64,000 bases of DNA, taken from Nitrospira sp. (GTDB lineage Bacteria > Nitrospirota > Nitrospiria > Nitrospirales > Nitrospiraceae). Under the pieces are notes generated by a model. The model was not told the origin of the DNA. It saw nothing but the letters and a program-made list of their open reading frames with translations, and did no database searches. Positions 43,833-64,000 of this stretch are shown one piece after another. The position numbers were made by a program, and so were the translations under genes. Position 1 is the first letter of the stretch, and the number at the start of each line of letters is the position of its first letter. The stretch lies in assembly GCA_018242725.1 (NCBI GenBank), contig JAFEBI010000014.1:1-64000 (forward strand). The letters run 5' to 3'.

Positions 43833-45857
43833 ATGGGACTGGACTCGCTCATGAGCATCGGGAAGACGGCCCTGTTCACGGCTCAACAGGCGTTGACGGT
43901 AACGGGCCACAACATCAGCAATGTCAATACACCGGGTTATTCCAGACAGCAAATCATGTTGACCGAACAACGACCGGCGGATGGCAGTCCCGGACAAGTC
44001 GGTACCGGCGTGAAGATCGCAGAAATCCGGCGGGCGGTTGATTCATTCCTTAATCGGGAGTTTACGGTCTCTCAGCAAGATCTTGGACAGTTCACGGTTG
44101 CGCAGGAGGAGCTCAGCAAGCTGGAGAGTCTTTTGGGCGATACAAACGGGAAGGGTTTGGCCGGACAATTGAACGAGTTTTTTAAAGCATTGCAGGATGC
44201 CTCCACGTCGCCGTCTCAGGTTACACCTCGTTCGGTCTTACTGGGGAAAGCGGCGACACTGGCCGTCTCATTCCATCAGCTCAGTGCGGACCTGACAAAT
44301 ACTCGCCAGGCGATTGACGTGCAGGTCGGCGTGACGATCAATGAAATCAATAGTCTTACAAAAAAGGTCGCTGAGCTCAATACGCAGATCAAGTCAGCTG
44401 AGGTCAGCGGCCAGAATGCGAATGATCTCCGGGATCAGCGCGATTTGGCCATCAATGATTTAGCGACGAGGGTTGAGGTTTCGACATTGGAACGTCCTGA
44501 TGGTACCGTTTCCGTCTTCACGGCCCGTGGATTGATCTTGGTCGATCAAGAAACAACGCGCAATCTGGTGGGAGTGGAGTCTTCCGACAATCAAGGCTTG
44601 CTTGATGTCGGGTATGATATCGGAGGAAATCGGCCGGCTATCATTGGCGGTCTGATTTCCAGCGGGAAGCTTCGAGGACTCTTGGATGTGCGCGATCAAA
44701 CGATCCCCTCGGTCTTACAGGGAGTCGACGCATTAGCAGGATCTCTTTTGACGGAGGTCAATCAAGTTCACCGGCTTGGGTACGGACTTGATGGTTCGAC
44801 CGGGCAGGATTTTTTTGCAGGTCTATCGGTCACGACTAAGACGCCCACGACGAATACGGGGACCAGCTCAATCAGTAGCGGAATCGTCACGGCTCCAAGC
44901 AACTTGACATTCCACGACTACGAGATTCGATTCAGCGGTACCAACAGTTATGCGATCATCGATGCCACTACGGGGAATGGGATCAGAGGTAACTATACCG
45001 GAACTGCCCTCACTCCTCCAACGGTGGATGCGCCGGTGAGTCTCGTAACAGGAGTGAATGACACCCTGGTCGTGTCCGTCGATGGAACCACTTCAGGAAC
45101 GATTACATTGAGCGGTGCAGCCTCACCTGGTCAGCCGTATGCCTCAGGCTCTGCGCTTGCCGCCGAACTCGAGGGCAAGATCAATGCGGATTCAACGCTT
45201 TCCGGAGCCGGCCGCAAGGTGACCGTGCATTTCGATAGCACGACGAATCGGTTGGTACTGCAATCCGCCACGATTGGCGGTACTAGTTCAGTTGATGTGA
45301 CAGGTGGGACGGCAAGGGCCAGCCTCGGTCTCTCCGGAGGTACCAGCACTGCGGCATCAGGCACATATAGCGGCCCTCAAACGTTCCACGTCGATGGTAT
45401 CGCCGTAACAGTTTCTGGCGCTCCGGCAGCAAACGATGTCCTGAAGTTTAACTCACGGGAAAATGCAGCTCGTGATTTATCCGTTGTGTTATCCGATCCC
45501 ACGAAGCTGGCTCTGTCGTCGACACGCGCAGGGGTTCCTGGAAATAATCAGAACGGAATTGCTCTGGTTGCTCTTCAATCCAAAGCCGTCGTTGGGCTCA
45601 GCAATGCGACGTTTTTTGATGCGTATCGAAAGACAGCCAGTGATCTTGGCGTTGCGTCGCAGGTTGCCAGCCAGCGCTTCGACGCCGAGAATGTTCGCAA
45701 CGAACAATTGCAAACGTTTCAGTCCCAGGTTTCTGGTGTGTCGCTCGATGAAGAGCTGGTCAATTTACTAAAGTATCAGAGGGCATTTCAGGCAGCCTCT
45801 CGTTTGATCACTGCCGCCGATGAGATGATGGCGACCTTGATCTCGCTCAAACAATAG
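43833..45857 (+). CDS. flgK: Hook-associated protein 1 FlgK
   Basis: The 674-residue protein starts with LMSIGKTALFTAQQALTVTGHNISNVNTPGYSRQ, has the family segment LRDQRDLAINDLATRVEV, and ends with SLDEELVNLLKYQRAFQAASRLITAADEMMATLISL. It forms the hook-filament junction. It is longer than typical FlgK (about 550) because of a Gly/Thr/Ser-rich insertion at about 355-515. Part of this (about residues 398-500) is clearly homologous to an insertion in FlgL (DGTTSGTI, KINADSTLSGAG, SSVDV). A flagellin-hook-IN-like fold is plausible. It is co-transcribed with flgN and flgL. Confidence 0.95.
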   Translation: MGLDSLMSIGKTALFTAQQALTVTGHNISNVNTPGYSRQQIMLTEQRPADGSPGQVGTGVKIAEIRRAVDSFLNREFTVSQQDLGQFTVAQEELSKLESLLGDTNGKGLAGQLNEFFKALQDASTSPSQVTPRSVLLGKAATLAVSFHQLSADLTNTRQAIDVQVGVTINEINSLTKKVAELNTQIKSAEVSGQNANDLRDQRDLAINDLATRVEVSTLERPDGTVSVFTARGLILVDQETTRNLVGVESSDNQGLLDVGYDIGGNRPAIIGGLISSGKLRGLLDVRDQTIPSVLQGVDALAGSLLTEVNQVHRLGYGLDGSTGQDFFAGLSVTTKTPTTNTGTSSISSGIVTAPSNLTFHDYEIRFSGTNSYAIIDATTGNGIRGNYTGTALTPPTVDAPVSLVTGVNDTLVVSVDGTTSGTITLSGAASPGQPYASGSALAAELEGKINADSTLSGAGRKVTVHFDSTTNRLVLQSATIGGTSSVDVTGGTARASLGLSGGTSTAASGTYSGPQTFHVDGIAVTVSGAPAANDVLKFNSRENAARDLSVVLSDPTKLALSSTRAGVPGNNQNGIALVALQSKAVVGLSNATFFDAYRKTASDLGVASQVASQRFDAENVRNEQLQTFQSQVSGVSLDEELVNLLKYQRAFQAASRLITAADEMMATLISLKQ

Positions 45858-45873
45858 AGAGAGGAGCGTTCTC

Positions 45874-47652
45874 ATGCGCGTCACTGACCAACAGATATTC
45901 GGGGTTCTCGTCAATAACTATCAGAGAGCCCGGTTGAAAGAGATGGAACTGCACGAGCACCTGGCCACCGGGAAACAAGTTCTGCAGCCGTCTGATGACC
46001 CAGGCCGGTTCAATCAGATACTGGAGAAGCAGACAACGCTGGCCAAGCTTGAACAACGCATTCGCAATGTGGCGACAGCGACCACACGTATCGATTTGGC
46101 CGACACATCTCTCCAAGGTACGACGACGACGCTCTCACGGATCAGAGAATTGGCTGTTCAGTTTGCTTCCGACACCAATGGTGCGCCGGAGCGAATAGCC
46201 GGGGCACGTGAAATCGGGACCCTTCTTCAACATCTGCTTCAGCTGGGAAATGCTGAATTTGAGGACAACCAACCGGTTTTCGGAGGAACAAGCCGACATG
46301 GATTTGCCGCGGGGTTGACGCTGTCGACGCCGGTTACAGTGACGGATGCTGTTGCGGATTCTTTGATCGTGAAGATAGATGGTGTGACATCAGGAACAAT
46401 TGATCTGACCAGCGGAACCGAGACGTTCAATGGGTCAGAATTAGCCGCGAGAGTACAAAGCCGTATCAATGCGGATTCAATACTGAGTGCTGCTGGGAAA
46501 AGTGCTTCCGTTAGCTATACTGATGGCAGGCTGGTCGTCACTTCTGACTCAAGCGGTTCGACCTCAAGCGTTGAGGTGTTGAGCGGTTCGGCTCGTGCAT
46601 TGCTCGGCTTCAATGGAGGAAGTGCTGGTTCCGGTGAATCGACGTTTTCGTCGACCGTGACAACGAATGTGGGTGCCGCAAACAGTGGTGGGGCAGTGGT
46701 GTCGCAAGGACAGATCATCGACACGAGCGCAACGTCTTTTGACAACTATGTGGTCAGATTCACCGGACCAGGGAATTTTGATGTACTCGATATTTCGGCA
46801 CCGGTCACGGCGGTTCCTAATTCCGCCAACACCGGTCGCATTGGCTCAATTGATGCCGGAATCATTGATCCTCAACGTGCGACGCTAGATGCATACGAGA
46901 TACAGTTTACGTCTCCGTCCCAATATTCCGTCCGGAACACGACGACCGGTGCGACGCTCTCAACCGGAAACTCTTATGTATCCGGAGGGGCCATCGAATT
47001 CGACGGTCTCCGTGTAGTGCTCTCGAACGTGCAGGGAAACGGACCAGCTACAGGAGATCGACTCGCCGTCGCCGTCGCTCCGAAACCAGTGCTCACCAAC
47101 CGGACCTACACGTCCGGTGATCCCATCCAGTTTGATGGAATCCAGGTTCGAATCACTAACGGCGCCTCAGCGCCAGTGGCAGGGGATCTATTTCATGTTG
47201 TGAGTCAAACAAAATATGCCGGTGATTCGGGTAGTCAGCAGGTGGAGGTGGCGGATGGAGAGGTCGTCACGACCAACATGCCCGGCGATCGAGTGTTTAG
47301 CGGTTCCGATATCAACGTATTCGACACGGTTCAACAACTTCTTGCGGCACTGCGAGGAAATTTCAAAGCTGGTATCAGAGAGAGTCTTGGTGGGCTCGAT
47401 CGAGCGATCAGCCAAGTGACGGCCGGCCATGGTACCATCGGCGCCTTGGCCAATCGATTAGAGGCCACTTCCGCCGCATTAGATGATACTAAATCAATAG
47501 CTACGAATGCCCTGTCGTCATTGCAAGACATTGATCTGGCAAAAACCATATCCGAACTGACCTTACAAGATTATGCCCTTCAGGCGGCCGGCCAGACGCT
47601 GTCGCGGATCTTTGACAACTCCCTTCTGAAATATTTACCCTCTCAAGTGTAG
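45874..47652 (+). CDS. flgL: Hook-associated protein 3 FlgL, enlarged
   Basis: The 592-residue protein starts with RVTDQQIFGVLVNNYQRARLKEMELHEHLATGKQVLQPSDDPGRF and ends with DLAKTISELTLQDYALQAAGQTLSRIFDNSLLKYL. These flagellin-like ends are typical of FlgL. Ordinary FlgL has about 300-400 residues; here the middle (about 145-480) is enlarged. It includes a module homologous to one in FlgK (DGVTSGTI, RINADSILSAAG, SSVEVLSGSARALLGF) and two related DAYEIQF/FDGLRV/FDGIQV repeats. It forms the second junction ring below the cap. A FliA-type promoter for csrA overlaps its 3' end. Confidence 0.93.
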   Translation: MRVTDQQIFGVLVNNYQRARLKEMELHEHLATGKQVLQPSDDPGRFNQILEKQTTLAKLEQRIRNVATATTRIDLADTSLQGTTTTLSRIRELAVQFASDTNGAPERIAGAREIGTLLQHLLQLGNAEFEDNQPVFGGTSRHGFAAGLTLSTPVTVTDAVADSLIVKIDGVTSGTIDLTSGTETFNGSELAARVQSRINADSILSAAGKSASVSYTDGRLVVTSDSSGSTSSVEVLSGSARALLGFNGGSAGSGESTFSSTVTTNVGAANSGGAVVSQGQIIDTSATSFDNYVVRFTGPGNFDVLDISAPVTAVPNSANTGRIGSIDAGIIDPQRATLDAYEIQFTSPSQYSVRNTTTGATLSTGNSYVSGGAIEFDGLRVVLSNVQGNGPATGDRLAVAVAPKPVLTNRTYTSGDPIQFDGIQVRITNGASAPVAGDLFHVVSQTKYAGDSGSQQVEVADGEVVTTNMPGDRVFSGSDINVFDTVQQLLAALRGNFKAGIRESLGGLDRAISQVTAGHGTIGALANRLEATSAALDDTKSIATNALSSLQDIDLAKTISELTLQDYALQAAGQTLSRIFDNSLLKYLPSQV

Positions 47653-53713: not shown

Positions 53714-54076
53714 TGCGAGTTCTGTAGGCAGCCTCCGACCTTCCTCGCGGCATAATTTTCCCCTTTCGCTTGCCTTGATGATCAGCTCTCTTTTCATTAA
53801 TGAGTGATAGTAAGAAAAGGCGGACCCTTCCCGGGCATAGGTCTTGCTCCTATGCTTGCCGGAAGTTGTTTCCTTGGATTCGAGGCATTGCCGAGACAGG
53901 GGTATCCAATTGTCTTCATAGCGCTGTCATGGGAGCGTTCCCGGCAAGTGTGCTCCGTGGTGGTGACGTCGACAGTTCGTTTCACTGTGCCACCAGTCAA
54001 AGTGTCGATTTTGCCGTGATCATGATATGAGTCGCTGGGGGAGGCCTCAGTCGCTATGCATTTGGGAGGGATGACT
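53714..54076. other. Intergenic stretch, no gene seen
   Basis: About 360 bases between the PilZ gene and the methyltransferase gene. A 76-codon frame exists but lacks a ribosome site and has an unlikely, cysteine-rich composition. No clear sigma54 or FliA element was found. GGGAGG at its end is the ribosome site of the next gene. Confidence 0.4.
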
Positions 54077-55078
54077 ATGGATTGGTCGGCATACAAGACA
54101 TACTGGTCAAAATACCTCATGGATACTACTAGTACCGAGACGCTGTTGTCCAATGATCCGAAACGAATGAAAGGATGCCATGCGTATGCGACGTTCGCGA
54201 CCCTATTGAGGCACGTTGAGCTTGAGCAACTGCAGAACATGCGAGTTGTCGATTACGGGTGCGGTACCGGCCGTCTGGCCAGACTCATCGCCCCGTTCTG
54301 CCGACAGTTGATTTTGGTGGATGTGTCGGTCGAGGCTCTCCAGGCGTGTCAGAAGCGGTTTGGTCATCTATCCAACGTGGAATACAGACTCGTGCAAGAC
54401 TCCAATTGGGTTATTACGGATAAGGTTGACTATGTGTACTCATACGCGTCTTTGATCTATATCTGCGATGCAAACGCTTTCTGGCACACAGTTGAAGGAA
54501 TAGATAAGGGTGCTGATGCCTTTGCTATTCATCTCCACAGCACCATCAATGAAGCTCCATACATGGCGGCTTACCCAGATATCGGTCGAGAGCTTCACAA
54601 GGTCAAGGGTTATAGACCTCGCCCGGAGACCATTCTCAATCGTTATTCTTCGGCATCTTCCGGGCGATACCTGGTGGAATGGCATGAACCTGATGTTCGA
54701 GGAAAAGACCCCTTCTTCTACAAAACGAGCCAGGCCTTCTCCGGCGTTCCGACGGGGGACGAGCCTTCTTCCTTGTGCACTAGGGAACGATTGGACAGGT
54801 TCCTCTGCAAGGAGGCTGAGCGCTGGTATGCCGACGGGGAAGTCAACAAGGCCTTGGAATTGTTGCTTGAGCTTGCTGGTGCGGAAACCAAAGTGTGGGA
54901 GGTTTACAATAATCTCGGCGTCATCGCGTTCGATCGATCCGATGTCGATTTGGCCATAACTTGTCTCAAAACTGCTCTGTCCAAAGGAGGGGCTTCGGAA
55001 GCCGCAAACAATCTGGAAACAGTGTTGCGAGCTAGCGGCAATAACTCGGAGGCCTGGTTAGTGGGGCAGGCACAGTAG
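54077..55078 (+). CDS. SAM-dependent methyltransferase with TPR tail
   Basis: The 333-residue protein has a class I methyltransferase fold: motif I RVVDYGCGTGRLARLI (about 55-70), the acidic end of strand 2 in LILVDVSVEAL, and motif IV-like DKVDYVYSYASLIYI. After residue about 245 a tetratricopeptide-like tail follows (RWYADGEVNKALELLLELAG, VWEVYNNLGVIAFDRSDVDLAITCLKTAL). The substrate is unknown. TPR-tailed methyltransferases are common in polysaccharide and flagellin-glycan loci, and it stands upstream of such genes here. ATG 54077 is preferred because GGGAGG lies seven bases before it; ATG 54071 would be too close. Confidence 0.8.
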   Translation: MDWSAYKTYWSKYLMDTTSTETLLSNDPKRMKGCHAYATFATLLRHVELEQLQNMRVVDYGCGTGRLARLIAPFCRQLILVDVSVEALQACQKRFGHLSNVEYRLVQDSNWVITDKVDYVYSYASLIYICDANAFWHTVEGIDKGADAFAIHLHSTINEAPYMAAYPDIGRELHKVKGYRPRPETILNRYSSASSGRYLVEWHEPDVRGKDPFFYKTSQAFSGVPTGDEPSSLCTRERLDRFLCKEAERWYADGEVNKALELLLELAGAETKVWEVYNNLGVIAFDRSDVDLAITCLKTALSKGGASEAANNLETVLRASGNNSEAWLVGQAQ

Positions 55079-55281: not shown

Positions 55282-55571
55282 ATGGAAGTTGCCAGCCCCA
55301 TATCTGTTGAGCAGCCGGTCCATGCCGGTATTCCACTGGTAGTGTCTCATATCACCTCGGTATTACCGGTACAGAGTGACTGGGAGCTCTTTGAGGCTAG
55401 GCAGGGATTACCGAGTTAGAACAATTCTGCCGACATGAATTCACCCGTCAGATTATAAATCCAAGATTTGTGCGGACAATACTAAGGGCCAAAGATGGCA
55501 CGTTATTTGTACAGTGTGAGCGTAACAGTAGGGGTGCAACAGTGGCCTCAGTTGATGCTGTGACTGCTTAG
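55282..55571 (+). pseudogene. Possible frameshifted small gene
   Basis: A frame from ATG 55282 encodes 45 residues (EVASPISVEQPVHAGIPLVV at the start) and stops at 55419. A second frame overlapping its end reads ITELEQFCRHEFTRQIINPR, then FVRTILRAKDGTLFVQC, to the stop at 55571. Read together, with one shift near 55400, they give a plausible protein of about 100 residues of no known family. Composition is better than random, but neither part has a ribosome site. A single-base error or true decay could explain it. Confidence 0.25.
55496..55511 (+). promoter_or_regulatory. Sigma54-type element before the PEP mutase gene
   Basis: TGGCACG (55496-55502) is a perfect -24 box, and at the right spacing the -12 reads TTTGTA, with GT for GC exactly as in the fliK element. 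Start would be near 55522, giving a leader of about 100 bases before the next gene. The overlap with a possible decayed frame makes this uncertain. Confidence 0.4.
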
Positions 55572-55620: not shown

Positions 55621-57003
55621 ATGGGAGTTGTCTATGTAGGTATGACGGTGGACATCCTGCATCATGGCCATATTAACGTGATTGAGACGGCCCGCCAGTA
55701 TGGTGAAGTGCTTGTTGGTCTGCTGACAGATTCGGCGATTGCCGATCATAAACGCCTTCCGCATTTAACGTATCAACAGCGTCAACGGATTGTCGGCAAC
55801 ATTGTGGGTGTCTCAAAAATCGTTCCTCAAGAAGAGTGGGACTACGCTCCAAACATTAGGCGGTATCGTCCCGACTTCATGGTGCATGGAGACGACTGGC
55901 TCGACGGTCCCCTGGCGCCCTACCGGGCCAGAGCAATTGAGGCATTGCAGATTTACGGCGGGTCTCTGATTGAAATTCCGTACACCCCTGGGGTGTCGTC
56001 TCATGCACTGGCTGCTCAAATGCGGAGTCAAGGGACCACTGCGGATATTCGGCGTCGAACGCTGAAACGACTGTTGGCGGCCAAACAAGTGTCACGTTTC
56101 ATTGAGGTGCACAATCCGCTCTCGGCATTGATTGCCGAGCACGCGACGGTCACTGTCGAGGGAAAAGTCAGGGAGTTTGACGGATTCTGGAGCAGTTCCC
56201 TTGCAGACGCTACGGCAAAGGGCAAGCCGGACATTGAGGCCGTCGATATCAGCAGTCGTCTGGCGAACGTCAACGACATATTCGAAGTCACCACCAAACC
56301 CATGATTTTTGATGGCGATACCGGTGGGAAACTAGAACACTTTGAATTCAATGTCAGGTCTCTTGAGCGACTGGGCATTTCAGCGGTGATCATCGAGGAT
56401 AAGAAGGGGCTTAAGAGAAACTCGTTGCTCGGCACTGATGTGACTCAGTATCAGGAAGAGGTTGAGGAGTTCTGCGCCAAGATTCAGGCGGGACGAAGGA
56501 GCCGGGTCAGTGAGGATTTTCTCCTCATCGCACGGTGTGAGAGTCTCATTCTTGGACGGGGATTACAAGATGCGATGATGCGAGCTAGGGCCTATGTCGA
56601 AGCCGGTGCCGACGGCATCATGATCCACAGTCTCATGAAGACCCCTGATGAAGTCCTCGAGTTTGCTCGATTGTTCAGGAACGAGTTTCAAAGCATTCCC
56701 CTGATTTGTGTGCCGACCAGCTATCACACCGCAACAGCGGATGTCCTTGCGACCGGCGGGTTCAACGTAGTGATTTACGCCAATCATCTCTTGCGCGCAG
56801 CTTATCCTGCCATGCAACGTGTGGCACACGAGATATTGTACAGCGGACGCTCCACGGAGACGGAGCCCAATCTGCTAGGCATCCCGGAAATCTTGAAGCT
56901 GATTCCCACTCGATCAGGAATCAGTGAACCGCCGAGCGGCAATTGGGTCGGTTCTCATTTGGCAGCGAGTCAACAGGTGAGCGAAGGAACTGCTGTATCT
57001 TGA
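55621..57003 (+). CDS. Cytidylyltransferase-phosphoenolpyruvate mutase fusion
   Basis: The 460-residue protein has two domains. Residues 1-140 are a TagD-like nucleotidyltransferase: YVGMTVDILHHGHINVI with the HxGH motif (14-17), GLLTDSAIADHKR, and GVSS near 125 at the place of the ISTT motif. Residues about 155-430 are a PEP mutase: GFWSSSLADATAKGKPD, FDGDTGG with metal-binding D231 and D233, and the diagnostic EDKKGLKRNS (259-268). PEP mutase makes phosphonopyruvate, the first step to all natural phosphonates. Such fusions imply later activation as a CMP-phosphonate and transfer to a glycan. No phosphonopyruvate decarboxylase or aminotransferase is in the window, yet one is required to pull the reaction. 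AAGGAG precedes the ATG. A giant transferase gene follows. Confidence 0.92.
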   Translation: MGVVYVGMTVDILHHGHINVIETARQYGEVLVGLLTDSAIADHKRLPHLTYQQRQRIVGNIVGVSKIVPQEEWDYAPNIRRYRPDFMVHGDDWLDGPLAPYRARAIEALQIYGGSLIEIPYTPGVSSHALAAQMRSQGTTADIRRRTLKRLLAAKQVSRFIEVHNPLSALIAEHATVTVEGKVREFDGFWSSSLADATAKGKPDIEAVDISSRLANVNDIFEVTTKPMIFDGDTGGKLEHFEFNVRSLERLGISAVIIEDKKGLKRNSLLGTDVTQYQEEVEEFCAKIQAGRRSRVSEDFLLIARCESLILGRGLQDAMMRARAYVEAGADGIMIHSLMKTPDEVLEFARLFRNEFQSIPLICVPTSYHTATADVLATGGFNVVIYANHLLRAAYPAMQRVAHEILYSGRSTETEPNLLGIPEILKLIPTRSGISEPPSGNWVGSHLAASQQVSEGTAVS

Positions 57004-57164
57004 TCTTAATCTCAAAGGGCCGGAATGCGCGAGGAAGTCTGTCTGCCGATTCCCACATTCCCGTTTCGCAGCGAGAATGGCCCCGTTCCGAATCGAGATA
57101 GACCCGTGCCCAGTAGGTTTGGACGAAAGAGAGACAGCCATTTCACATCACAACGAGGATATCA

Positions 57165-60100
57165 ATGAATCGCCGGCCACTTATTTCATTCTTCTTTACC
57201 GATGATATCGAGCGACAAACGCTGGCACCTATTGCCCAAGAGGCCGAGCGACGCCAATACCGAGTGCGATTCACCGATCGCATGGATGAACCAGCTGAGA
57301 TCGGTATCTACTGTTCCCACCGTCCTGATCCCTCCAACTCGAGGATGTCGGCCATCTTACTGCACGACCTAGCCCAGAGACATGACATTTGGCCCGACTT
57401 CTGGAAATACGAGCCTTGGAACCGTTTCGATATCGGAATACTGCCAGGACCGTCTTGGCGTAAGCGCTGGCAGGCTTGCGCCATGCAGCCAGAGGCCTGT
57501 CCACGTATCGGGGTGTATGAACTGGGGTGGCCGAAAGCGGACGTGATCTTCCGGGATCCGGAAGCCTTTCAGCAGACGGTGGCCGGACTCAGAACTGATC
57601 TGCACCTCGGACCACGCCGTTCCGTACTCTATGCTCCATCCTGGGAAAATGACGGCAAGCAGGATGACCTGGTGCAGTCCTTGCGACATCTGCCGGTGAA
57701 TCTCCTGCTCAAGCAGGCACCTTGGCCGGAGGCCTACCCGCAGATCTTAGAAAACATCCGGCGGATGAACGAGTTGCACCGAGATTGCGCGGAGAATGTC
57801 CATATCCTTGATCCACATCTCAGCATCATGCCGTGTCTCGGGCTTGCAGATGTGCTCGTTACTGAAGAATCCAGCGTCATGGTGGAAGCGCTGCTACTCG
57901 GCATTCCCGTGGTGGCCGTGACGGACTGGCTGATCCCAGACCGCAATCCGTCGCGCCCGGCAATGATCCCCTTTGAGTTTCCCATCAGGACAACACGCGC
58001 GGAGCTTCAGCACACAGTAGCAGGTCTTCTTGCCAATTTTGATCAAGCACGGATCGATATGGTTCGGCTCCGAGACGAACAATTCGCCTGTCTCGGCGAG
58101 AGTGCCTCACGCATCATGGACGTGATCGAGGCTGGTTGGGAGGGCAAGGTACCGGCGATCGTCCCAGTGGTGGCGGAGATCCTCTCTTCCATCGGACCGT
58201 CGGATTACCAGTTCGATTCCACACTCCGTATTTGGCGCCGGAACGACTATAAGGGTATCGCTTATTCAGATGGGAAAGAAACAGAGAGCCGGATCTTGGC
58301 CATTCTCAGAAACAGCAGTGACCTGACATCCGACTCATCGGAGTTGGAACGGTCTATCATCGACTGGCCGACGGAGTATCACCTGTCGTCGGGGCGCGGG
58401 AATTTGCTCCGATGGATGAAGGTTCCTTCGGGAAGCCGGATCTTGGAATTGGGGTGTGGTTGTGGGGCTATCACGAGGGTATTGGGAGAATCAGGGGCAG
58501 CGGTCACGGCGGTGGAAGGCAGCGTCCAACGAGCAGCCATCGCGGCAGAGCGTTGCCGTGACCTGTCCAACGTCCGCGTGGTGGCGGACAATATCGCAAC
58601 GTTTTGCGTGGAGGAGCAGTACGACATCGTCACGCTTATTGGAGTGCTGGAGTATTCGTCCCTATTCATGCCGGGGGAGGATCCCATCGGAGCATGCCTC
58701 CGTAAGGCCCGTTCGTTTCTCAAGGAGGGTGGGACGCTGCTCATCGCTATTGAGAATCAGCTTGGCCTCAAATACTTCGCCGGCAGTTCCGAAGACCACA
58801 TGGGGCAACCATTCTACGGCGTCGGGGATCTGTACGGTCCCCGGACAGCAGTAACGTTTGGTAGAAACGAACTCCGCCGACGTCTGACGGAGGTTGGTTT
58901 TACAGAGACGGAGTTCTTTTATCCATTCCCAGACTATAAATTGCCTCAAGTGATTGTCAGCGACCATGTCAGATCGTTCCCGGCCTTCCGCGTCGCCGAT
59001 CTGCTCGCTCGGATATCGAGTCGAGACTACACGCGGGACTGGCGTCCGAACTTTCCAGAAAACCTCGCGGCCCAGGCACTTGAGCGCAACGGTCTGCTTT
59101 TGGACATGGCGAACTCATTTCTGATCTCAGCCAGCTCTGGTGTCGCCCAAAGGAAGTCATGGCTCGCAACCTATTACTCGTCAGTAACACGCCGATCAAG
59201 TCTTCGCGTCGAAACTACTTTCATGCCGGATGCTGACGGCAGCATCCGGGTCCATCGACGTCGTTTACTTGATCAACAGCCTCAGTACGCGGACGCAATG
59301 TGGCATCAAGAGCTACAGACAGTCGGTTCCTACCACGGGGGAACACTGTTCTCGACGGAGCTCATGCGGTTAATCGCCAGGCGTGCGTCGGCGCAGGACA
59401 TTGCGGCATGGCTGCGTCCTTGGGTGTGGTTGTTGCTCGAACATGCAACATGGCCAGTGCAAGAGGCGCGGGAGAAAGCGAGCAGCCTCTCGTGGATGGA
59501 TGCGCTGTTGCCGGGTGAGTTTGCCGACTGCATCCCCTTCAACTTGGTTCGAGATAACGAGGGTAGGCTGCATCGGTTCGACCACGAGTGGGTGCATGCC
59601 ACGAAAGTGCCGCTTTGCTGGGTCTTGTTTCGCGGGCTCTTTCACTTACAGTATCAGGCATTTCCATCGCCGAAACCTCAAGAATGGACGGCGCTCACCT
59701 TAGCCATTCTTCAGCACCTCGGACTCTCGTTGGAGAAACGGCATGATCGGCTGATTAGGGAGTACGAAGGCTCCCTACAAGGCTTTGTCTCGCGGCCATC
59801 CACTCACGAGGGGGTGATCTGCAGCATTATCATCCCTGTCTGGAATAAGCTGGAACTTACGGCGCAATGTCTGACGGCACTATCAGCCGTGACGACGGAA
59901 CCCTCTTATGAAGTCATCGTAGTGGACAACGGTTCGACCGACGGCACAGCGGAATACTTGTCCACATTGTCCGGTGATGTGCAGATCATACGGAATCAGG
60001 AGAACCTAGGATTCGCCAAGGCCTGTAACCAAGGAGCGCGGGCTGCAAAGGGACAATATCTGGTCTTTCTCAACAACGATACGATTCCATTGAAGGGCTG

Positions 60101-61433
60101 GTTGAAGGCCCTCGTTAGCGAAGTTGATGGATATCCGGAGGTCGGTATCGTCGGCAGTAAACTGCTGTATCAAGACGGGACGATCCAGCATGCCGGCGTA
60201 GCCTTGAGTCGAGTCGATGGGCTGCCCTATCACATATATATGGGCTTTGCAGGTGATACACCTGCCGCGAATCAGCGACGAGAGTGTCAAGTGGTCACCG
60301 GGGCCTGTTTGTTGATACGCCGGTCGGTCTTTAGGGAGTTGGGGGGCTTTGACGAGGGGTTCCTCAACGGCTTTGAAGATGTTGATCTCTGCCTCAAGGC
60401 CGGAGCGCGAGGGCAGCGGGTCGTGTACCAGCCTCGGAGCGTTCTATATCATCTCGAAAGCCAAACCCCTGGCCGCAAACTCCATGACGACAGCAACGCA
60501 AAACGCTTGCTGGAACGATGGGGATCGAACTGGTGGCTGCCTGATGAGGATCTGCATTACCACATGGGCGGGTATAAACACATTCTCAGGATAATAGAAA
60601 AGCGATTCGCGGGGACCGTCCAATTGTTTAAGGATATTGAAGAGCGTGCGGCTTGGGCCCATGTGGCAGCGACTCAAGCAGCCGCGGTCAAGAAGGACTG
60701 GTCATCGGTACGGAGAGAACTCGCGTTGACCCACGATTGGCCGCATGACAGCCATGTCTTGTTCTGGGCTTCCACGGTTTGCGAGAAGCTTCAAGAGCCA
60801 GCTCTTCAACAACAATTTCTCAGCCGTTACCTTGAATTGGAAGAGGCGCCTGGCGCGCGCCTTTCACTGGCCCGCATGTTGCTGATGCAACAGAATCTTG
60901 CTGCCGCAGAGCAGCAGGTGAAAGCACTCCTCGCAACAGCTCCCGAGAATGCCGAAGCGCAGGTGTTGCGAGGTGTGATCTGCATGCAACGGGAACAGTA
61001 CGGGGAAGCGGAAGCGGCATTCTCATCTGCGTTGAGGCAGGGTGCAGAACGCAAGAAGTGTCTCATGGGGCTTGGCATGGCTTCTTTAGGAAGAGCATAC
61101 CCGCAAGGGGCTTGGGAACGGTTTTGCGAAGTGCTTGCCGAATACCCTGATGACGCCGAAGCGATTCATTGGTTGCTTCGTGCAGGGACGGCCCAGAATC
61201 GTTGGCAGGAGTTGGGTGAGCACTTGCACCGGTACACGACTAGAAACTCCGGAGATGTTGCGGCTCGCTTCGCCCTCACCGGTGTCCTGTTACGCGGTGA
61301 GCAGATCGAAGCCGCTCGCAGGGAATATGATGCCCTTTGCAAGGTCGACTCATCGTATGACGGACTAGTACAGCTTGGCCAGGCAATCGCCGGAAGGGAA
61401 GCGGCTCTTACCATGGAAGCCACTTCGTCCTAA
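57165..61433 (+). CDS. Giant transferase: glycerophosphotransferase-methyltransferase-GT2-TPR
   Basis: The 1422-residue protein contains several modules. Residues 1-330 resemble CDP-glycerol glycerophosphotransferases (TagB/TagF type: RRSVLYAPSWENDG, then ADVLVTEESSVMVEALLLGIPVVAV). Residues 400-610 are a class I methyltransferase (ILELGCGCGAITRVL near 425). Residues about 884-1110 are a GT2 glycosyltransferase (IIIPVWNKLELTAQCL, VVDNGSTDGTAEYL, FLNNDT, GGFDEGFLNGFEDVDLCLKA). Residues about 1220-1410 are TPR-like repeats. Together they could add a CMP- or CDP-activated phosphate-containing group, methylate and extend a surface glycan. It follows the cytidylyltransferase-PEP mutase gene by 161 bases, so CMP-phosphonate is an attractive donor for the first domain; that is inference. 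It has no signal or membrane helix. Confidence 0.88.
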   Translation: MNRRPLISFFFTDDIERQTLAPIAQEAERRQYRVRFTDRMDEPAEIGIYCSHRPDPSNSRMSAILLHDLAQRHDIWPDFWKYEPWNRFDIGILPGPSWRKRWQACAMQPEACPRIGVYELGWPKADVIFRDPEAFQQTVAGLRTDLHLGPRRSVLYAPSWENDGKQDDLVQSLRHLPVNLLLKQAPWPEAYPQILENIRRMNELHRDCAENVHILDPHLSIMPCLGLADVLVTEESSVMVEALLLGIPVVAVTDWLIPDRNPSRPAMIPFEFPIRTTRAELQHTVAGLLANFDQARIDMVRLRDEQFACLGESASRIMDVIEAGWEGKVPAIVPVVAEILSSIGPSDYQFDSTLRIWRRNDYKGIAYSDGKETESRILAILRNSSDLTSDSSELERSIIDWPTEYHLSSGRGNLLRWMKVPSGSRILELGCGCGAITRVLGESGAAVTAVEGSVQRAAIAAERCRDLSNVRVVADNIATFCVEEQYDIVTLIGVLEYSSLFMPGEDPIGACLRKARSFLKEGGTLLIAIENQLGLKYFAGSSEDHMGQPFYGVGDLYGPRTAVTFGRNELRRRLTEVGFTETEFFYPFPDYKLPQVIVSDHVRSFPAFRVADLLARISSRDYTRDWRPNFPENLAAQALERNGLLLDMANSFLISASSGVAQRKSWLATYYSSVTRRSSLRVETTFMPDADGSIRVHRRRLLDQQPQYADAMWHQELQTVGSYHGGTLFSTELMRLIARRASAQDIAAWLRPWVWLLLEHATWPVQEAREKASSLSWMDALLPGEFADCIPFNLVRDNEGRLHRFDHEWVHATKVPLCWVLFRGLFHLQYQAFPSPKPQEWTALTLAILQHLGLSLEKRHDRLIREYEGSLQGFVSRPSTHEGVICSIIIPVWNKLELTAQCLTALSAVTTEPSYEVIVVDNGSTDGTAEYLSTLSGDVQIIRNQENLGFAKACNQGARAAKGQYLVFLNNDTIPLKGWLKALVSEVDGYPEVGIVGSKLLYQDGTIQHAGVALSRVDGLPYHIYMGFAGDTPAANQRRECQVVTGACLLIRRSVFRELGGFDEGFLNGFEDVDLCLKAGARGQRVVYQPRSVLYHLESQTPGRKLHDDSNAKRLLERWGSNWWLPDEDLHYHMGGYKHILRIIEKRFAGTVQLFKDIEERAAWAHVAATQAAAVKKDWSSVRRELALTHDWPHDSHVLFWASTVCEKLQEPALQQQFLSRYLELEEAPGARLSLARMLLMQQNLAAAEQQVKALLATAPENAEAQVLRGVICMQREQYGEAEAAFSSALRQGAERKKCLMGLGMASLGRAYPQGAWERFCEVLAEYPDDAEAIHWLLRAGTAQNRWQELGEHLHRYTTRNSGDVAARFALTGVLLRGEQIEAARREYDALCKVDSSYDGLVQLGQAIAGREAALTMEATSS

Positions 61434-61437
61434 TCCG

Positions 61438-62622
61438 ATGACACGGCGTACACTTCTGATCCAACTAGCCAGGCTCGGCGATCTCGTGCAAACGATCCCG
61501 GCCATCACCGCGCTCAAGGAAGCGCACGAGGACTGGGCTGTCGATCTTTTATGTCCGGCACATTTGGAGAACATCGGACGCGTACTTCCTGGAATTTCTA
61601 CGGTGGTGAGATGGGATGGACCCGCGTGGAAGCAACGTGCGCTCCAGGCCGAGAAAGAATTCCGACCGGAATATCTCGTCGAAGCCGACACCGATATTCG
61701 CGCGGTTGTGAAAGAGCTCTATGACTGTGCGTTTGTCCTCAACCAACATCCGCGAGCGATCTTGGCCGGTGCACTTCTTGCCCGAGATAGTACGGGAGCA
61801 ATTTCAGGAGGTCCGCTCGATCAGAAATTATCACCGTGGGCGACCTATGTGCGAAGTGTCGCCAGCGACAAAGGAGACAACCGCGTTCACTTGGCCGATG
61901 CGTTCTGCGGGATGTGCGGTGTAGCCCCACCGAAAGAGATGATGCCTATGCAAGTTCTCTCCGCACCACTTCCCCTCGATCTTGATGCGATCAGGCAATC
62001 TGGTGGAGCCTGGCTCGGACTACTCGTGGGTGCGGGAGATCCGGAGCGAGTCATTCCGGCCTCGGTCTTGGTTTACCTGATCACCGCCTGTCTGAATAGG
62101 CTCCCACACAGTCGCATCGTGCTCTTCGGGAGTAGGCACGAACAAGAGCGAGCTCACTGGATTCAGGCGGAGCTTTCTCCATCTCTCGTAGGGCGCGTCT
62201 GGGACACGACAGGCCGTCTTTCGTTGACGGAGTTAGCACAGGCACTCACCCGCTGCCAGGTTGTTATCGGGGCAGATACCGGGCCGCTTCATCTTGCAGC
62301 CGCTGTAGGGACAAAGGTGATTGGTTGGTACTTTGCTCGCGCGAGGCTTCACGAAACGGGGCCCTATGGGACACACCATTGGGTCTGGCAAGCAACCGGA
62401 GGTGAGGGCTACGCTCAGCCGGTAAGCATCCCACATCATTGGCCAATTGATGAGACGATCGCGCTCCTGTCGAACGACCAGGTCGATTCGGTTCCAGGCT
62501 GGTCACTCTGGGAGAGTCATCGAGATCGGTGGGGCGCCTACTATGTTCAGGCTGGTCAGGAAGCGATCGCTCCACTTCAACGAGAACACGTTTGGAAGGA
62601 CTTACATTTCGCTGTGGCGTGA
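61438..62622 (+). CDS. Glycosyltransferase family 9 (heptosyltransferase-like)
   Basis: The 394-residue protein shows the GT9 pattern: MTRRTLLIQLARLGDLVQTIPAITALKE at the N-terminus, and TELAQALTRCQVVIGADTGPLHLAAAVGTKVIGWYF in the nucleotide-sugar domain, with the DTGPLHLA hallmark. GT9 members move ADP-heptose or similar sugars onto core oligosaccharides. Here the C-terminus is extended (WSLWESHRDRWGAYYVQ). ATG 61438 lies four bases after the giant transferase stop, so the two are one operon. It probably acts in the same glycan pathway. Confidence 0.9.
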   Translation: MTRRTLLIQLARLGDLVQTIPAITALKEAHEDWAVDLLCPAHLENIGRVLPGISTVVRWDGPAWKQRALQAEKEFRPEYLVEADTDIRAVVKELYDCAFVLNQHPRAILAGALLARDSTGAISGGPLDQKLSPWATYVRSVASDKGDNRVHLADAFCGMCGVAPPKEMMPMQVLSAPLPLDLDAIRQSGGAWLGLLVGAGDPERVIPASVLVYLITACLNRLPHSRIVLFGSRHEQERAHWIQAELSPSLVGRVWDTTGRLSLTELAQALTRCQVVIGADTGPLHLAAAVGTKVIGWYFARARLHETGPYGTHHWVWQATGGEGYAQPVSIPHHWPIDETIALLSNDQVDSVPGWSLWESHRDRWGAYYVQAGQEAIAPLQREHVWKDLHFAVA

Positions 62623-62634
62623 GGGAGGAATGCG

Positions 62635-64000
62635 GTGGAGTATCTGAACCACAACCTGGAGAGACTTCGCCGGAATGCTCCTGAACTTGCAGAAGCAGTG
62701 CGGCACAGTCTTGGTGGAGTCTTGACGATCGTCCCCTCGCGAGAGGGTTCTCCTTCCGCTACCCATAAAGGGCAATGGGTCCACAGCGCCTATGATCCAA
62801 AGAAAGAGGCCGGGTCATGGGCAGAACAGCAGTTCCAGCAATGGAAAGCTGACGAGGTGGCTGTGGTTCTTGGGGTTGGCCTCCTCTATCACGTGGAGGC
62901 GCTCGCTCTTTCTCGCTCTTCCGATGCCCGAATGGTCGTTGTGGTGCCGGATCTGTCCCTGTTGAAAGATGCAATGGGTGCGAGGCCTCTCGGGCCGTGG
63001 GCCGACAGGATTCACTGGGTAACCGGTACACCGGAGGAAATGGCTACGCAATTGACTGCACAATCCTCCCCTTTGCGGTTTTTGACCTATGGGCCGGCGG
63101 CACGGCTGCATGTGGATGTTCATGAGCGACTGCAGACGAGCCTCAGTCGGATGATGGCTAGAAAAACGGGGGGGCAACTGCATGTGGCGGTGGTTGGCCC
63201 AATCTATGGAGGATCGCTGCCGATTGCCCGGTATGTCGTATCAGCCTTGAATCAGTTGGGGCATCGAGTCAGTTGGCTCGATCACCACGTTCATCAGGGT
63301 AGCTATGAGGCCTTCGGATCGTATCGCGAAGAACGCCATCGCCTGATGCTTCAAAGTCGATTTGCCGACGTGCTCAGCTTGAGTACGATGGCGCATCTGG
63401 CGGAGGATCCACCCGATCTGGTTCTCGCCATTGCCCAAGCTCCGTTGGGTTTGGCGGTATTGCAACACCTTCGCAAGAAGAAATTTCTGACCGCCATGTG
63501 GTTTGTGGAGAACTATCGTCATCTGACCTACTGGCAACAGTTGGCGGCGGGATATGACTATTGGTTTGTCATCCAGCAAGGGGGCTGTTTCGACGCATTG
63601 AAGCGGGCCGGGGCGGGTCACGTGCATTACCTGCCTATGGCGGCAGATCCCACGGTGCATCGCCCACTGACTCTGACAGCGGCTGAGCAACAAGAATATG
63701 GGGCCGATGTCTCGTTTGTCGGGGCTGGTTATGCCAACCGGAGGACGCTCTTGCCTCAGTGGCTCTCTCACGAATGGACGACGAAACTGTGGGGAAATGA
63801 ATGGGACGGTGCTACCGCGCTTTCAGGAATACTTCAACGCGACGGCGCCAGGGTCGATACAGATACCTGTATGAAAGTGTTTAGTGCTACGGCCGTGAAT
63901 TTGAATCTGCATTCGTATTCAGGGACGGGCATGGATCCTCAACCGGACTTCGTAAACCCTCGCACGTTTGAATTGGCGGCCTGCGGCGCGTTTCAGCTTG
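62635..64000 (+). CDS. CgeB-like glycosyltransferase, cut by window edge
   Basis: The frame opens with GTG 62635, eight bases after GGGAGG, and stays open through the right edge (at least 455 codons). It starts YLNHNLERLRRNAPELAEAV and has HVAVVGPIYGGSLPIARYVV, then FVGAGYANRRTLLPQWLSHEWTTKLWGNEW and the C-terminal PRTFELAACGAFQL, a pattern seen in DUF3880/CgeB-type glycosyltransferases. The first 170 residues resemble the N-terminal part of similar multi-domain surface-glycan enzymes. It follows the GT9 gene by 12 bases. The substrate is unknown; context favours modification of flagellin or another surface polymer. Confidence 0.85.
   Translation, partial: MEYLNHNLERLRRNAPELAEAVRHSLGGVLTIVPSREGSPSATHKGQWVHSAYDPKKEAGSWAEQQFQQWKADEVAVVLGVGLLYHVEALALSRSSDARMVVVVPDLSLLKDAMGARPLGPWADRIHWVTGTPEEMATQLTAQSSPLRFLTYGPAARLHVDVHERLQTSLSRMMARKTGGQLHVAVVGPIYGGSLPIARYVVSALNQLGHRVSWLDHHVHQGSYEAFGSYREERHRLMLQSRFADVLSLSTMAHLAEDPPDLVLAIAQAPLGLAVLQHLRKKKFLTAMWFVENYRHLTYWQQLAAGYDYWFVIQQGGCFDALKRAGAGHVHYLPMAADPTVHRPLTLTAAEQQEYGADVSFVGAGYANRRTLLPQWLSHEWTTKLWGNEWDGATALSGILQRDGARVDTDTCMKVFSATAVNLNLHSYSGTGMDPQPDFVNPRTFELAACGAFQL

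Follow-up and report, generated by a model that had tools for sequence, protein, structure and literature searches.

Several described systems bear on how bacteria might place phosphonates on their surfaces. In the Pnt system of phosphonyl tailoring, PepM, Ppd, a 2-aminoethylphosphonate (AEP) transaminase, PntC, and a LicD-like transferase act in a capsule or wall setting, and the steps after phosphoenolpyruvate (PEP) mutase in such tailoring have been called enigmatic (PMC6697681). A published survey counted 23.6% of PEP mutases as fused to a cytidylyltransferase (PMC6697681), the layout of Fom1 of Streptomyces wedmorensis, which serves fosfomycin. On flagella, AEP occurs on the type A flagellin glycan of Clostridioides difficile, with an AEP-type fragment at m/z 126.03 (PMC8861647); in the literature searched, no other phosphonate came up on the flagellin glycan of a bacterium. 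Here we describe a locus in 64,000 nucleotides of Nitrospira sp. (GCA_018242725.1, JAFEBI010000014.1, positions 1-64,000 of the forward strand; hereafter, the window), in which a gene for a cytidylyltransferase-PEP mutase fusion precedes that of a giant protein beginning with a TagF-like domain, within a flagellar gene cluster. We see an even chance that the pair would transfer a phosphonate from CMP to a flagellin glycan, as a variant of known phosphonyl tailoring; the donor, the acceptor, and the carbon-phosphorus product are what we infer.

The locus would share with Pnt the logic of AEP, CTP activation, and transfer to a surface glycan, but has a TagF-like candidate and Fom1-type activation where Pnt has the LicD-like transferase and PntC-type activation, and its setting is flagellar, with steps spread over three contigs. 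Fom1 resembles the fusion in domain order and predicted chemistry (PMC6697681); however, it serves a small-molecule antibiotic, whereas here the genes around the fusion are flagellar or encode glycosyltransferases, with none of fosfomycin type seen. The Gram-negative capsule polymerases Cps1B, Cps3D, and Cps7D (PMC5974469) combine a TagF-like domain, a glycosyltransferase (GT) domain, and tetratricopeptide repeats (TPRs), as the giant protein does, but the latter lacks the second catalytic His, carries a methyltransferase region in between, and has a PEP mutase fusion as its partner gene. While C. difficile is pepM-negative in a survey, so far as it is quoted in PMC8861647, the window has pepM within its flagellar island. 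Nothing joining a phosphonate with a CDP-glycerol glycerophosphotransferase was found in the literature searched.

The fusion gene (55621-57003, plus strand) encodes 460 residues, and its sequence predicts a Fom1 layout with a true PEP mutase, the cytidylyltransferase occupying residues 1-135 and the mutase residues 148-430. In Pfam, residues 9-101 match CTP_transf_like (48 bits against a cut-off of 21) and residues 148-406 match PEP_mutase (188.5 bits against 31.5), and the PEP mutase equivalog TIGR02320 is passed with 398.9 bits against a cut-off of 319.55; the protein fails the models of the sister families phosphonopyruvate hydrolase, PrpB, and CPEP mutase. The motif EDKKGLKRNS agrees with EDKxxxKxNS and with the published EDKXXXXXNS. 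Residues D231, D233, E259, K265, N267, R305, and H336, which we take from established family knowledge to be the PEP- and metal-binding positions, show no variation across the fusion alignment; five otherwise invariant positions differ in the window, none of them among these residues. The cytidylyltransferase domain, an N-terminal PF01467 domain of the HxGH type, retains HHGH and SS motifs and is 54% identical over 131 residues to PDB 5x3d, presumably the cytidylyltransferase domain of Fom1. An initial annotation of this DNA had named a TagD-like cytidylyltransferase fused to a PEP mutase; fusion, mutase, and motif hold, but the TagD label fits only loosely, the glycerol-3-phosphate cytidylyltransferase model TIGR01518 giving 53.1 of the required 165.4 bits. 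The GC content of the fusion (0.533) resembles that of its surroundings (0.549), so that composition gives no sign of recent arrival, and recent horizontal gain was rejected on this measure.

The giant gene (57165-61433, plus strand; 1422 residues) comprises a TagF-like domain (residues 1-340; 57165-58184), a methyltransferase region (residues ~400-880), a GT2 domain (residues 887-1102; 59823-60470; Glycos_transf_2, 110.8 bits), and TPRs (residues about 1218-1382; 60816-61310). Residues 1-340 have no Pfam match. A profile built from 12 members of this TagF-like family matches Cps3D (1.3e-10) and TarL (4.9e-5), both TagF-type enzymes, and an AlphaFold model of these residues (pLDDT 90.4) has TagF as its top Foldseek match (4e-13), in agreement with the CDP-glycerol-phosphotransferase-like start given by the initial annotation; the Methylophilus homologue exceeds the cut-off of Pfam Glyphos_transf (PF04464). 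Enzymes of this kind depend on two His, H444 and H584 in TagF (PMC5974469). The first, equated by strand and motif and not by atom superposition, is H67 in the giant protein and is present in 11 of the 12 family members, and the ESS motif is retained.

Fusion and giant sit in a glycosylation island between flgKL (43833-47652) and fliC/fliD, with fliC at contig positions 66915-67742, so the flagellar neighborhood noted initially holds. The same pairing was found elsewhere. Scanning genome contigs turned up 18 fusion loci, 17 with downstream sequence, and in all 17 the same cassette contains a decarboxylase, a PhnW-related aminotransferase, and a second cytidylyltransferase (in Segatella, only the decarboxylase). 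Motifs are kept in both cassette cytidylyltransferases; the aminotransferases reach only 60-64 bits against PhnW models, which makes AEP likely but not certain. A clear TagF-like homologue lies within 10 kb in 10 of the 18 loci, and a weak one in one further locus. Six Methylophilus species have the orthologous fusion divergent from fliC, its start ~0.5 kb away on the other strand, at the head of an operon of fusion, decarboxylase, aminotransferase, second cytidylyltransferase, methyltransferase, and, last, a TagF-like protein 51-53% identical to the window domain. Methylophilus methylotrophus DSM 46235 is one carrier of this operon. Just past the operon, the opposite strand encodes a protein of >1,700 residues whose methyltransferase region is the same (39-40%), and Methylotenera has operon and fliC ~29 kb apart on one contig. 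No description of a phosphonate on Methylophilus flagella was found in the literature searched. In Methylophilus rhizosphaerae the linker of the fusion contains an in-frame TAG (L017:10397-10399), so that cytidylyltransferase and PEP mutase may be made there as separate proteins.

A maximum-likelihood tree groups the window fusion with those of one member each of Kiritimatiellae and Acidobacteriota and one further bacterium (96/97), while the Methylophilaceae fusions form a separate group (100/99). The two therefore represent different lineages with the gene at flagellin, and by this tree the position beside flagellin probably has two origins; the Methylophilus species, six close relatives, make up a single event, and the comparison was chosen after the fact. 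Outside flagella, a capsule-type locus on a Segatella copri plasmid holds a fusion, a decarboxylase, a phosphonoacetaldehyde reductase, and a CDP-glycerol glycerophosphotransferase, which supports the pairing of fusion and phosphotransferase in another setting. On a Bacteroides finegoldii plasmid (L092:10329-15514), a TagF-like gene (30.8% identity to its Methylophilus counterpart, over 49% of it) stands with a class V aminotransferase, a cytidylyltransferase, a phosphotransferase, and an LTA synthase; the 22 kb read there include no annotated PEP mutase.

Compared with these cassettes the window reads as a stripped version, in which fusion and TagF-like part are kept and the middle steps would be borrowed from the rest of the genome. 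The initial annotation would have counted the pathway as refuted had the genome lacked a phosphonopyruvate decarboxylase or other pulling enzyme, and advised looking beyond the 64 kb for this decarboxylase and an aminotransferase; the genome does hold the decarboxylase, so the pathway is not refuted in this way, and an aminotransferase is there as well. On contig C31, among housekeeping genes, a second PEP mutase with a fused C-terminal nucleotidyltransferase-like domain (L005:10122-13025; G000:C31:132121-135024) is followed by such a decarboxylase (500.2 bits, cut-off 312.5). Contig C29 contains a cluster (L070:5080-10586; G000:C29:160079-165585) of a split decarboxylase, a PhnW-like transaminase (351.2 bits, below the model cut-off of 360.8), and nucleotidyltransferase-like, CDP-alcohol phosphotransferase-like, and flippase-like genes. 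Across the genus, 77 of 79 genomes carry the CDP-alcohol phosphotransferase gene of this cluster, and a PEP mutase lies in or beside a C29-type cluster in both relatives read (G050 and G381), which indicates that phosphonate synthesis is old in the genus. The C29 cluster looks like a core phosphonolipid pathway, its product probably being a lipid. For a hydroxyethylphosphonate (HEP) route, the Segatella phosphonoacetaldehyde reductase found no match in the genome, in a search without a positive control, so that HEP is still possible. As predicted from these genes, the pathway is not self-contained: of the phosphonoglycan pathway initially placed at the locus, the first and activating steps alone appear local, the middle steps lie elsewhere, and in the nearest relative with the giant gene the island lacks the fusion.

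We propose the following route, in which the identity of the phosphonate, the donor of the TagF-like domain, the acceptor, and the step order are our interpretation. The PEP mutase half would form phosphonopyruvate, the decarboxylase of C31 (or the split one of C29) would convert it to phosphonoacetaldehyde, and the PhnW-like transaminase of C29 would then probably yield AEP, which the cytidylyltransferase half would activate as CMP-phosphonate. The TagF-like domain would move the phosphonyl group onto a glycan with release of CMP, the acceptor being built by the GT2 domain and neighboring transferases, modified by a methyltransferase, and most likely carried on flagellin. At the level of gene prediction, phosphonate synthesis and activation at the locus are firm; it is plausible that the giant protein transfers the phosphonyl group, and gene position in two lineages is what points to flagellin as the target. 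As a whole, the initial interpretation is partly supported.

Several observations weigh against this route. G206, the nearest relative with this island, whose assembly is 95% complete, has all of it in the same gene order, with a giant protein 81% identical over residues 1-879, and no fusion between its methyltransferase and giant genes; the open reading frame of 147 residues at that place encodes no cytidylyltransferase and has the look of a chance one. A full-length fusion match is confined to the window's genome among 396 genomes of the phylum, and the TagF-like domain to the window's genome and G206 among the 79 of the genus; the fusion may have been gained in the window or lost in G206, where the donor of the domain may be CMP-phosphonate supplied by the core pathway or some other compound. 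The aminotransferase family and second cytidylyltransferase of the cassettes have no close match in the window's genome, which has three other PF01467 genes. No flagellin was found in 7 of 15 fusion-bearing hosts, several of them incomplete assemblies, so the cassette would be a general surface-tailoring device, recruited to flagella if our proposal is right. The second catalytic His (TagF H584, in K-x-H-P) is Ala185 in the window (K183-Q184-A185-P186), and K-Q-A-P is common to the window, G206, and Methylophilaceae, while the control L089 has K-F-H-P with the His present; by these residues the domain cannot be classed as a full TagF-family enzyme. With the Ala fixed across the clade and strong purifying selection on the domain between the window and G206 (dN/dS 0.085), altered chemistry or substrate appears likelier than decay. 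Finally, VIA-align of the residue 1-340 model gives UDP-GlcNAc 2-epimerases Z scores of 21-22 (rmsd ~4, 290 residues) and TagF a Z score of 20 (rmsd 4.3-4.7, 300 residues); GT-B epimerases thus rank about equal to TagF, and the fold alone is not decisive.

These points feed three alternatives. The CMP-phosphonate made by the fusion might go to a different surface polymer, or to the lipid-type pathway of C29 found across the genus, and the fusion might stand in the flagellar island, ahead of an unrelated giant glycosyltransferase gene, by accident. The giant gene of G206 stands without a fusion, several fusions adjoin CDP-alcohol phosphotransferases (L025 and L029) or belong to hosts without flagellin, and the C29 cluster is all but genus-wide (77 of 79), all of which would suit such an accident; yet fusion and TagF-like gene recur together at flagellin in Methylophilus, on another branch of the fusion tree, and here stand head to tail downstream of a single, conserved promoter-like box, and we consider accidental placement unlikely, if worth keeping in view. 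We also doubt that the TagF-like domain makes an ordinary phosphodiester-linked flagellin glycan from glycerol-phosphate or hexose-phosphate, with phosphonate as a separate decoration or minor alternative donor: known TagF-like polymerases with GT-A/GT-B and TPR domains do use such donors (PMC5974469), and the G206 domain is maintained by selection with no fusion beside it, but no family-level glycerol-3-phosphate cytidylyltransferase was found (the window's own domain fails TIGR01518, with the other PF01467 genes left untyped), and TagF-like and PEP mutase genes are paired in Methylophilaceae, Pelagibacteraceae, and Segatella. That residues 1-340 are some other GT-B enzyme, a glycosyltransferase or epimerase-like, or have lost TagF chemistry, as the clade-wide Ala and the epimerases that tie with or exceed TagF by VIA-align might suggest, is improbable given that the significant profile matches are TagF-type enzymes and not epimerases, that Foldseek puts TagF first, and that His67 and the ESS motif are kept.

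Along the contig lie flagellar rod genes, flgK, flgL, fliW, a histidine kinase, an HD-GYP-type protein, PilZ, a methyltransferase, the fusion, the giant, GT9, CgeB-like, a second GT9, a small open reading frame, fliC, and fliD, the glycan genes thus standing among flagellar genes near fliC. The flagellar names come mostly from reading translations, and that of fliC also from similarity to Methylophilus flagellins that pass Pfam. Upstream of the fusion, a methyltransferase and TPR protein (54056-55078, plus strand; 70% identical in the same island of G206) may be a member of the same pathway. The GT9-family, heptosyltransferase-like protein (61375-62622, plus strand, with ATG at 61438 the likelier start; Glyco_transf_9, 54.2 bits) and the CgeB-like glycosyltransferase (62635-64000, plus strand, extending to contig position 64452; DUF3880 and Glyco_trans_1_2) bear out their initial naming. 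Within the giant, the class I methyltransferase region and a C-terminal part with a kinase-like motif span 58398-59591, as seen from Pfam methyltransferases, family alignment, and fold. No substrate is read for it, since the phosphoethanolamine methyltransferases among its fold matches tie with many others. The motif, D788xxPxN793...D806xEW (59526-59591), was recognized by eye and is invariant in seven relatives; a WbdD-like kinase domain was rejected, as Pfam, PDB, and fold searches gave methyltransferases alone. Other giants of the genus (L087:9874-14676 and L088:9969-14231) resemble the one described here in their methyltransferase region (36-38%) and in a GT2-like part; no TagF-like domain was seen in them.

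A sigma54-type promoter-like box, TGGCACGTTATTTGTA (55496-55511, plus strand), has 1 mismatch to TGGCACGNNNNTTGCW and lies 110 nt before the fusion gene; no sigma70-like site was found on its strand. It falls within a 21-base stretch of which 19 bases are conserved in G206, there upstream of the giant gene, while the remaining intergenic DNA aligns poorly. The individual element proposed initially is upheld in this way, but the 13 sigma54-type boxes of the window show no enrichment over the 11.2 expected and, as a set, were rejected as no more numerous than chance. A further 1-mismatch box (37799) is just upstream of a flagellar rod gene.

Since the same pairing stands beside the flagellin gene in unrelated bacteria, cells may decorate their flagella with phosphonates. 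We hold more tentatively that two phyla separately built a pathway for placing a self-made phosphonate on flagellin, through a class of TagF-like transferase without the second catalytic His. Together with the operon of Methylophilus, the locus singles out a family of candidate transferases and, as candidate acceptor, flagellin, which is readily purified. If our proposal is true, phosphonates would belong to the flagella of culturable methylotrophs, and the AEP of C. difficile flagellin would gain a genetically defined counterpart.

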